Origin: Laetiporus sulphureus 93-53
Lineage: Eukaryota > Basidiomycota > Agaricomycetes > Polyporales > Laetiporaceae
Reading direction: 5' to 3'
Assembly: GCF_001632365.1 (NCBI RefSeq)
Contig: NW_024468578.1
Location: 2,972 to 66,971, forward strand
Length of the DNA: 64,000 bases
The number at the start of each line of letters is the position of its first letter. Within the stretch, counting starts at the first letter, position 1. This document shows positions 59,711-61,246 of this stretch, one piece after another. A program made the position numbers and the translations under genes. The notes beneath the pieces are model-generated. The model did not search any database. It saw nothing but the letters and a program-made list of their open reading frames with translations, and was not told the origin of the DNA.

Positions 59711-61246
59711 TCATACTGCCACTTCTTCCTCCTCGTCATCGTCATCGTCATCCGTAAGCTCCTCTCCCTCCTGCACGCCGCGGTGCCTCTCCAATCCTGG
59801 CCGACGCGCCCACGCGCGGCCATCGGTATATGGTTCGATGCGAAAGGGGAAGAGGAGGGTATAAAGAGGGCTGCGTGTTCAAAAGTGAGTTGAATCTGGC
59901 AGACTGGTCAGTTTCCTCGTACGTACTATCCATCCTGGCCAACATTGAAGAACAGCTCAAGGTTTCTCCGCTTTCTGAAGATGTTCCACATAAGAGCGAA
60001 CGAACGAATAGCGCCCATTCATAGCTTGCTCACCCTAGGTCATAGGAATTCACGAATGTCTACAGCAGAACATATCAGACTACACCTCACGCCAAAGAGC
60101 GGAGCGTCCGACTCACCTCGCCCCGCCCTTTCGCCATCGTCCGGTACATCTCGTTGTCCGCCGCCTCCACGGACGTCTCCCCGCACGCGATACCATACAG
60201 GTGCCACGCGGTCATGATCGTCACTGCAAAAAAGAGGATGGCAGAGAGTATGAAGGTGATGACGAACGCGATTGGAGGGGCATAGTAGTCCCACGTATCC
60301 TAGAAGGGAATATCGTGAGAGACGTGTGGAGAAATGGGGACGAAAAGGGAGACGAACGTCTCCGTGCCACCCCATTGCGGAAAGGACGTGCGGCCAGCCG
60401 GAGATGGCGTAGCAGAATGTGGAGATCGAGAGGTATATGCTATGAGATAGGTTAGTTCTGAATGTAGCCGCATGGATGCGTCGCACTGTCACGTACAGGA
60501 AGAGCACAAAGTGCCGCTCGTTGTGCAAGCCGACACACTGGTTGATCCCTACCGCCAGTCATGCATACACTTGAGCGTGCAAACGCTCACAACGAGATAA
60601 ACATACACTGCACACAAGTCAGAGCAGAGTTATCAGGCACGAACGACACCACGTACTGGGCAGTGATGGTCATACTTCAGCACGCAGCGGTTGCATATCC
60701 GACAATGGTGAGACCTCTCGCAGCGCACACCCATCAGCACCTCCTACCCCCCCGTACCAGCTCGATTACTCACCTCGGGCCTCATCACAAGACACTTCCG
60801 ACACCGCCGCATGCTCGCTCTTGTGACGTTCAACAACTCCGACCAGCGCACTCCGCCCGGCGTGCTCGTCCTTTTCTGCGCCCACATCCATCCCGAGCGC
60901 GGTTCCGGCGACAGTGGCGGGTCGTCTATGAACCCCGGCGGGATGGTGCACACCCAGTAGTAGTGCATGAAGAGGTTGAACGCGATCAACGCGCATATGG
61001 GGGTTGTGAGCCACAGGAGAGGCAAGGTCGGTTGTATCACCTCGACTAAGAAACGCATGCAGTAGGCACAGGAGTGATCTCGTCAACTGAAAGACTAGGT
61101 ACTAGGTACTTACAGAAACAGAACGCTCCGCTGGAGAGCAGGATGACCCCGAGGGTAACGAACAGAGGGCCGGCGGCGCCTGTGATTCTGTCCGCAATAC
61201 GCTCAAGCCTCCTGAAGCATCTGAAAACTTGTCTCGCGCAGATCAT
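59711..61246 (-). CDS. DHHC palmitoyltransferase, with a one-nucleotide exon
   Basis: Transfers palmitate to protein cysteines at a cell membrane. Exons 61246-61114, 61045-60774, 60716-60657, 60607 (single base), 60548-60497, 60439-60358, 60299-60117, 60059-60034, 59974-59927 and 59870-59711 give 338 aa. It has two transmembrane helices (LFVTLGVILLSSGAFCFF, ICALIAFNLFMHYYW), the Cys-rich domain with CRKC, HHCRICNRC and DHHC at 151-154 followed by Pro, and then INQCVGLHNE. Two more helices follow (LIYLSISTFCYAISG, IAFVITFILSAILFFAV), a TTxE-like TSVEA, YDLGKRRNLELFFN, and an acidic tail. The conserved Trp after DHHCP is encoded only if the T at 60607, between AG and GTATGT, is spliced in. Confidence 0.9.

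Follow-up and report, generated by a model that had tools for sequence, protein, structure and literature searches.

A probable one-nucleotide exon in a DHHC palmitoyltransferase gene of Laetiporus sulphureus, with signs of sharing across Agaricomycetes

We analysed a 64-kb window, the whole stretch of DNA under study here, which lies on contig C69 (144,455 bases) of the 38.6-Mb assembly of Laetiporus sulphureus 93-53, a member of the Polyporales. The minus strand carries a DHHC palmitoyltransferase gene that runs from an ATG at 61246 to a stop at 59711, and its ten-exon model encodes 338 amino acids without an inner stop. A 189-residue stretch of the product matches the DHHC cysteine-rich domain (PF01529) with 115.4 bits, compared to a curated cut-off of 28.7 bits; the product is a predicted DHHC palmitoyltransferase, an enzyme of the kind that links fatty acids to proteins. 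Solved relatives of the encoded enzyme include DHHC20, ZDHHC9, ZDHHC5 and ERF2. The best protein match, P0001, is also the public model of the gene, and it differs from the window's translation at two splice junctions alone. The exons, and the two introns that concern us most, are as follows.

61114..61246, minus strand: exon 1, with the start ATG at 61246 (gene model, match to P0001)
60774..61045, minus strand: exon 2 (gene model)
60657..60716, minus strand: exon 3, RSHHCRICNRCVLKYDHHCP, last codon CCA (part of the PF01529 match)
60608..60656, minus strand: intron before the one-nucleotide exon, 49 nt, GTACGT...CTGAC-TTGTGTGCAG (gene model, CTRAY matches)
60607..60607, minus strand: exon 4, putative one-nucleotide exon T, which opens the TGG (Trp) codon in DHHCPW (parses and comparison with relatives)
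60549..60606, minus strand: intron after the one-nucleotide exon, 58 nt, GTATGT...ATGAC-TGGCGGTAG (gene model, CTRAY-like site)
60497..60548, minus strand: exon 5, GG ATC AAC CAG..., which brings the GG of the Trp codon and INQCVGLHNERHFVLF (gene model)
60358..60439, minus strand: exon 6 (gene model)
60117..60299, minus strand: exon 7 (gene model)
60034..60059, minus strand: exon 8, 26 nt (gene model)
59927..59974, minus strand: exon 9 (gene model)
59711..59870, minus strand: exon 10, with the stop codon (gene model)

Exon 8 (26 nt, 60034-60059, minus strand) is a second small exon in the same palmitoyltransferase gene.

The original prediction held that a single base forms an exon here, and the positions it gave are all correct. 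Exon 3 stops with GACCATCACTGCCCA at 60657, with GTACGT directly after it; the single T at 60607 sits between TGTGTGCAG and GTATGT; and the next exon opens with GGATCAACCAG at 60548, one base short of the frame, a shortage that the T makes good by completing the TGG of DHHCPW. One base is left between AG and GT, with introns of workable length on both sides, which is the arrangement of a single-nucleotide spliceosomal exon. The flanking introns are 49 nt (60656-60608) and 58 nt (60606-60549) long, and the gene's seven other introns span 56-68 nt. Both flanking introns have GTNNGT donors (GTACGT and GTATGT), as do six of the seven others, and their acceptors are CAG and TAG. The 49-nt intron contains two matches to CTRAY, CTGAC at 11 nt and CTGAT at 25 nt before its end, and the 58-nt intron contains ATGAC, a match at four of five positions, 10 nt before its end. 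Cutting out the whole 108 nt as one intron, and thereby skipping the T, would create the junction CCAGGATC and a frameshift; the T is needed for the frame. In 20,000 dinucleotide shuffles of the interval, a bare AG-T-GT appeared at a feasible position in 15%, and an AG-T-GT with a YAG acceptor and a GTRNGT donor in 1.0%. Consequently, the local sequence alone is suggestive and no proof, and it is the comparison with relatives that makes the case. The 21-base spliced junction, CACTGCCCATGGATCAACCAG, is absent from the assembly as DNA when up to two mismatches are allowed.

We enumerated the ways of splicing the 108-nt interval, retaining a parse only if it kept the frame, DHHC and NQCVG. One-intron parses had introns of at least 30 nt with GT-AG, GC-AG or AT-AC ends; in two-intron parses, a middle exon of 1-30 nt stood between GT-AG introns that were each 35 nt or longer. 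Three one-intron and six two-intron routes were retained, and DHHCPWINQCVG (DHHCPWINQ) came from the T at 60607 alone. The three one-intron GT-AG routes keep the frame without the T and yield DHHCPVR, DHHCPVRG or DHHCPVRGVVR. The donors at 60649 and 60640 were rejected alongside the donor of the VR route. A two-step excision analysis, nested introns included, gave the same answer and found that either order of removal works. The interval holds two further one-base AG-n-GT candidates, a C at 60585 and a T at 60569. The original prediction that other donors give the wrong phase was nearly right, but these two keep the phase as well.

The tryptophan that the T would complete is a feature of the wider family. 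Three DHHC paralogues in the same assembly (L001, L002 and L003, on contigs C7, C10 and C2) carry it unbroken and in frame, within the motifs DHHCQW, DHHCPW and DHHCLW, of which DHHCQW and DHHCLW are variant; a further weak paralogue match in the assembly, L006, has no DHHC motif. Human DHHC20 also has a tryptophan at the aligned place. By alignment, and by numbering from the catalytic His154 (offset counted by hand), the tryptophan of DHHCPW corresponds to W158 of DHHC20, which according to a review touches the acyl chain of docked compounds (PMC11854935). The Pfam score of the Laetiporus product drops from 115.4 bits with W to 102.9 with VR and to 109.0 with R.

We compared the junction with those of related proteins. 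Three protein searches, giving the best 120 of 488, the best 120 of 283 and the best 120 of 538 matches, supplied 172 distinct proteins among the matches listed, of which 35 are transcript-like and 137 genome-derived. The third search favours Trp-bearing proteins because it was scored on residues 122-176 alone, and the first (best 120 of 488) is the fair comparison. Transcript-like is our own judgement, made from a source tag of jgi, lgn or ena together with a short contig. Contigs of 0.9-2.6 kb (at most 2,573 bases) carry 33 of the 35, and the weakest members are P0149 (a 5,823-base contig, an odd C-terminus and the source name palmitoyltransferase) and P0156 (4,043 bases). The introns of the Laetiporus gene add up to 519 nt. 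Even the longest contig of 23 of the 35 has no room for the coding sequence and a further 519 nt, and this applies to 16 of the 25 proteins with 319 residues or more; the remaining 12 of the 35 have a longest contig that could accommodate the introns too. The 35 proteins are best read as spliced transcripts. P0152, which reads NNCVG but has DHHCPW, is counted among them.

The genome-derived models are those with an NCBI genome-project name. Twelve of the 137 have no readable DHHCP...xNQCVG and were left out of the counts (P0019, P0031, P0042, P0053, P0061, P0089, P0090, P0101, P0106, P0108, P0131 and P0168); these include P0031 with DHHCAG, four models with DHHW and three with DHHCPCVG. Same-species pairs of transcript and genome model were not found among the matches listed, perhaps because the collection was clustered at 90%. 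The closest pairs among these matches are P0138/P0023 (89% identity over 214 residues) and P0116/P0130 (86%). A scan for the DNA of other fungi, in which alignment A1 (37 sequences) was compared with viral and genome contigs, gave 23 and 9 pattern matches, respectively, none of which was confirmed by tblastn.

Among the matches listed, DHHCPW is present in all 35 transcript-like proteins, compared to 5 of the 137 genome-derived models; in the first search (best 120 of 488), the counts are 18 of 18 and 2 of 102. When a model has at least two residues between DHHCP and xNQCVG, as 105 models do among the matches listed, the last of these residues is R, G or W in every case (68, 29 and 8 models, respectively). 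The pair is V followed by R (63 models, including P0001), W (5) or G (3) in 71 of the 105. One-residue junctions, again among the matches listed, hold G (15 models) or W (5), and never R. Codons of the form nGG encode only arginine (AGG, CGG), glycine (GGG) and tryptophan (TGG). If the upstream exon ends with CCN and the next begins with GG, then a gene finder that borrows intron sequence will end its last borrowed codon as nGG; since no residue other than R, G or W stands last, those models, too, very likely have GG at the start of the next exon. The pattern implies that the relatives share the one-base shortage, with nGG deduced from residues, of which R and G have other codons. V followed by R, W or G is what a model shows if it takes the first four bases (GTNn) of a GTNNGT donor into the coding sequence and splices at the second GT instead, and the Laetiporus DNA confirms that P0001 does so. 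The models with a lone G or W fit a forced join, in which a G that starts or ends the intron would bring them to the right length.

The PV[RWG] set spans eight orders of Agaricomycetes among the matches listed: Ramaria (Gomphales), Rickenella (Hymenochaetales), Stereum (Russulales), Paxillus (Boletales), Piloderma (Atheliales), Heliocybe (Gloeophyllales), Mycena (Agaricales) and Laetiporus (Polyporales). We read AG-T-GT itself in the DNA of one species, L. sulphureus, and its breadth rests on the relatives' protein models and our sorting of their sources. Outside Agaricomycetes, the Wallemia model P0165 reads DHHCPW, and the one-base arrangement may be absent there. Overall, the comparison suggests that most public models examined miss an exon that many mushroom relatives share. 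The originally proposed one-nucleotide exon is supported both by the only GT-AG parse tried that gives DHHCPW (introns of at least 35 nt) and by the tryptophan and residue pattern of the relatives.

Two further irregularities recur in the public models. DHHW is found in 4 of the 137 genome-derived models among the matches listed (P0061, P0090, P0131 and P0168); these lack the catalytic cysteine and the proline, and they fit a falsely called GC-AG intron that joins the T of TGC to GG. We rejected this join for the Laetiporus gene: it would give DHHW, with the catalytic cysteine gone, and it is seen in none of the 35 transcript-like proteins among the matches listed. It does not figure in our parse list because the list kept DHHC products only. 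Separately, the intron directly upstream of exon 3 (60717-60773, minus strand) has the acceptor GAG, not YAG, in the ten-exon model, and P0001 adds residues before ERSHHC at this junction. The plain motif [R/K]P[E/D]R[A/S/T]HHC is missing from 15 of the 137 genome-derived models, P0001 included, and [R/K]PER[A/S/T]HHC is present in all 35 transcript-like homologues (both counts among the matches listed). A second recurring mis-annotation, at this junction, is likely.

By the public model, the interval would instead contain a single 104-nt intron, whose donor, GTGGTG, lies 4 nt downstream at 60652; the junction would be CCAGTACGGATC and the enzyme would read DHHCPVRINQCVG. This intron is canonical GT-AG and preserves the frame, and PVR is read by P0001 and 62 other models among the matches listed. 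However, we consider it very unlikely. Its donor does not have the GTNNGT form found in six of the gene's seven other introns, its length falls outside their 56-68 nt range, and the substitution of VR for W lowers the Pfam score by 12.5 bits. VR occurs in none of the 35 transcript-like homologues among the matches listed, even though some are 80-89% identical to models with PVR or PVG, and an extra residue that is R, W or G is expected if it is merely set by the fourth base of the intron.

It is very unlikely that a different single base serves as the exon, although the C at 60585 (DHHCPR) and the T at 60569 (DHHCPW) each lie between AG and GT and keep the frame. The C would replace tryptophan with arginine, between introns of 71 and 36 nt, and would use the donor GTTTGC. 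The T at 60569 would produce the same mRNA, but we rejected it because its second intron would be 20 nt long, compared to 56-68 nt for the gene's others, which by ordinary standards would be too short for a branch site and an acceptor. A nested intron, or stwintron, in which the internal intron interrupts a splice site of the external one, is hardly credible here. The interval does resemble published stwintrons in its total of 108 nt and in its stacking of splice sites (PMC5639578), but among routes with GT-AG introns of 30 nt or more no nested one leads to DHHCPW, both routes to it being serial, and the nested routes among those listed (up to six per product) lead only to products with VR for W. 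The external intron of a stwintron works only after the internal one has been removed, whereas both introns here are complete. Finally, a missing or wrong base in the assembly, or a pseudogene locus, deserves almost no weight: a sequencing error would produce just such a one-base shortage, but the gene's other exons are open and conserved and an equal shortage appears, as deduced from their residues, in genome-derived models from eight orders.

We conclude that the T at 60607 is a genuine and probably constitutive one-nucleotide exon, inherited from an ancestor of many Agaricomycetes, and we put the probability of this reading at a little over nine in ten. By intron definition, two complete, ordinary short introns would leave in turn, whichever goes first. 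Removal would have to be sequential because the first acceptor and the second donor, one base apart, would not be bound together. The joining of CCA, T and GGATC would then produce CCA TGG ATC, and with it the family's DHHCPW motif. The relatives' protein models point to an exon that descends from the ancestor of a large part of Agaricomycetes, and is no peculiarity of one species. With good but somewhat lesser confidence, we propose that the exon is ancient and predates the split of Gomphales from the orders around Agaricales, Polyporales and Russulales; that selection for the tryptophan base has kept it; that it is a fungal counterpart of the exons in APC11 and VPS55, with an independent origin; and that most models of this enzyme in the class are wrong beside the catalytic cysteine.

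The locus would be a natural, and apparently long-conserved, test of the fungal spliceosome on an exon that could not be smaller: exon definition cannot work on it, and the order of intron removal would be readable directly from splicing intermediates. Alongside the plant examples, it would demonstrate that single-base exons can persist for very long times in separate kingdoms. It also exposes what appears to be a systematic annotation error: tryptophan with the right spacing is present in 5 of the 137 genome-derived models among the matches listed, and the use of the other models for alignments, structure prediction or cloning would introduce a wrong motif beside the catalytic cysteine. The patterns of misreading, PVn for donor misuse and a lone G for a forced join, could help to find more one-nucleotide exons.

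The original prediction called a functional one-nucleotide exon extremely rare, which is fair, but cases are known (PMC4674806, PMC8831610, PMC12940212). The nuclear examples described in these papers are APC11 and VPS55, two one-nucleotide exons conserved across land plants (PMC8831610), and CYP621A in Fusarium. The APC11 exon, reported from Arabidopsis (PMC4674806) and from most land plants (PMC8831610), resembles the Laetiporus case in being nuclear and spliceosomal, in its AG-n-GT arrangement and in being needed for the frame; in addition, public annotation misses it and many species share it. The Arabidopsis authors propose that its introns are removed successively by intron definition, and they point to a 9-nt exon in a potato gene, where the second intron is the first to leave (PMC4674806). 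The APC11 exon is an A within a 422-nt interval, tested by mutation in protoplasts and by RNA-seq (PMC4674806), whereas the putative Laetiporus exon is a T in a basidiomycete, flanked by introns of 49 and 58 nt and predicted from sequence. The VPS55 exon of land plants is likewise nuclear and spliceosomal, and it is widely shared and missed by reference annotations; its donor is GTRAGT, and RT-PCR sequencing has confirmed it (PMC8831610). It differs in belonging to a plant gene, and in that several lineages splice it alternatively or have one copy without the exon (PMC8831610).

Like the Laetiporus gene, CYP621A is fungal and nuclear; one base falls within a codon of a conserved motif (PKG), the introns are short (together 139 nt in F. 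graminearum), gene models are wrong and orthologues have the exon in common (PMC12940212). RNA reads confirmed this exon in a 2026 report, which calls it the second known case and the first fungal one, a count that apparently does not include VPS55 (PMC12940212). The base is a G, the middle of a glycine codon, and the exon is described from one ascomycete genus and its sexual states (PMC12940212), whereas the Laetiporus base is the first of the tryptophan codon in a catalytic motif and shows signs of sharing across orders of Agaricomycetes.

Other systems are less alike. The one-base exon of placozoan cox1 is mitochondrial and not spliceosomal (PMC5436844), and that of fungal mitochondrial rnl lies between two group II introns, also outside the spliceosome (PMC12308204). 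The stwintrons of filamentous ascomycetes share the stacking of two short introns and their successive removal by intron definition; their outer intron becomes complete only once the inner one is gone (PMC5639578), whereas neither Laetiporus intron needs the other's removal to become complete, and one exon base is left behind. Among basidiomycetes, the P450 genes of Phanerochaete were surveyed in 2005, and the smallest exons reported there measure 6 bp (PMC1184071). The literature that we found on single-nucleotide exons, microexons and stwintrons describes no basidiomycete case and none in a palmitoyltransferase gene. Within that literature, the exon at 60607 is apparently the first one-nucleotide exon from a basidiomycete, and what is new is its lineage, its apparent breadth and its position within a catalytic motif.
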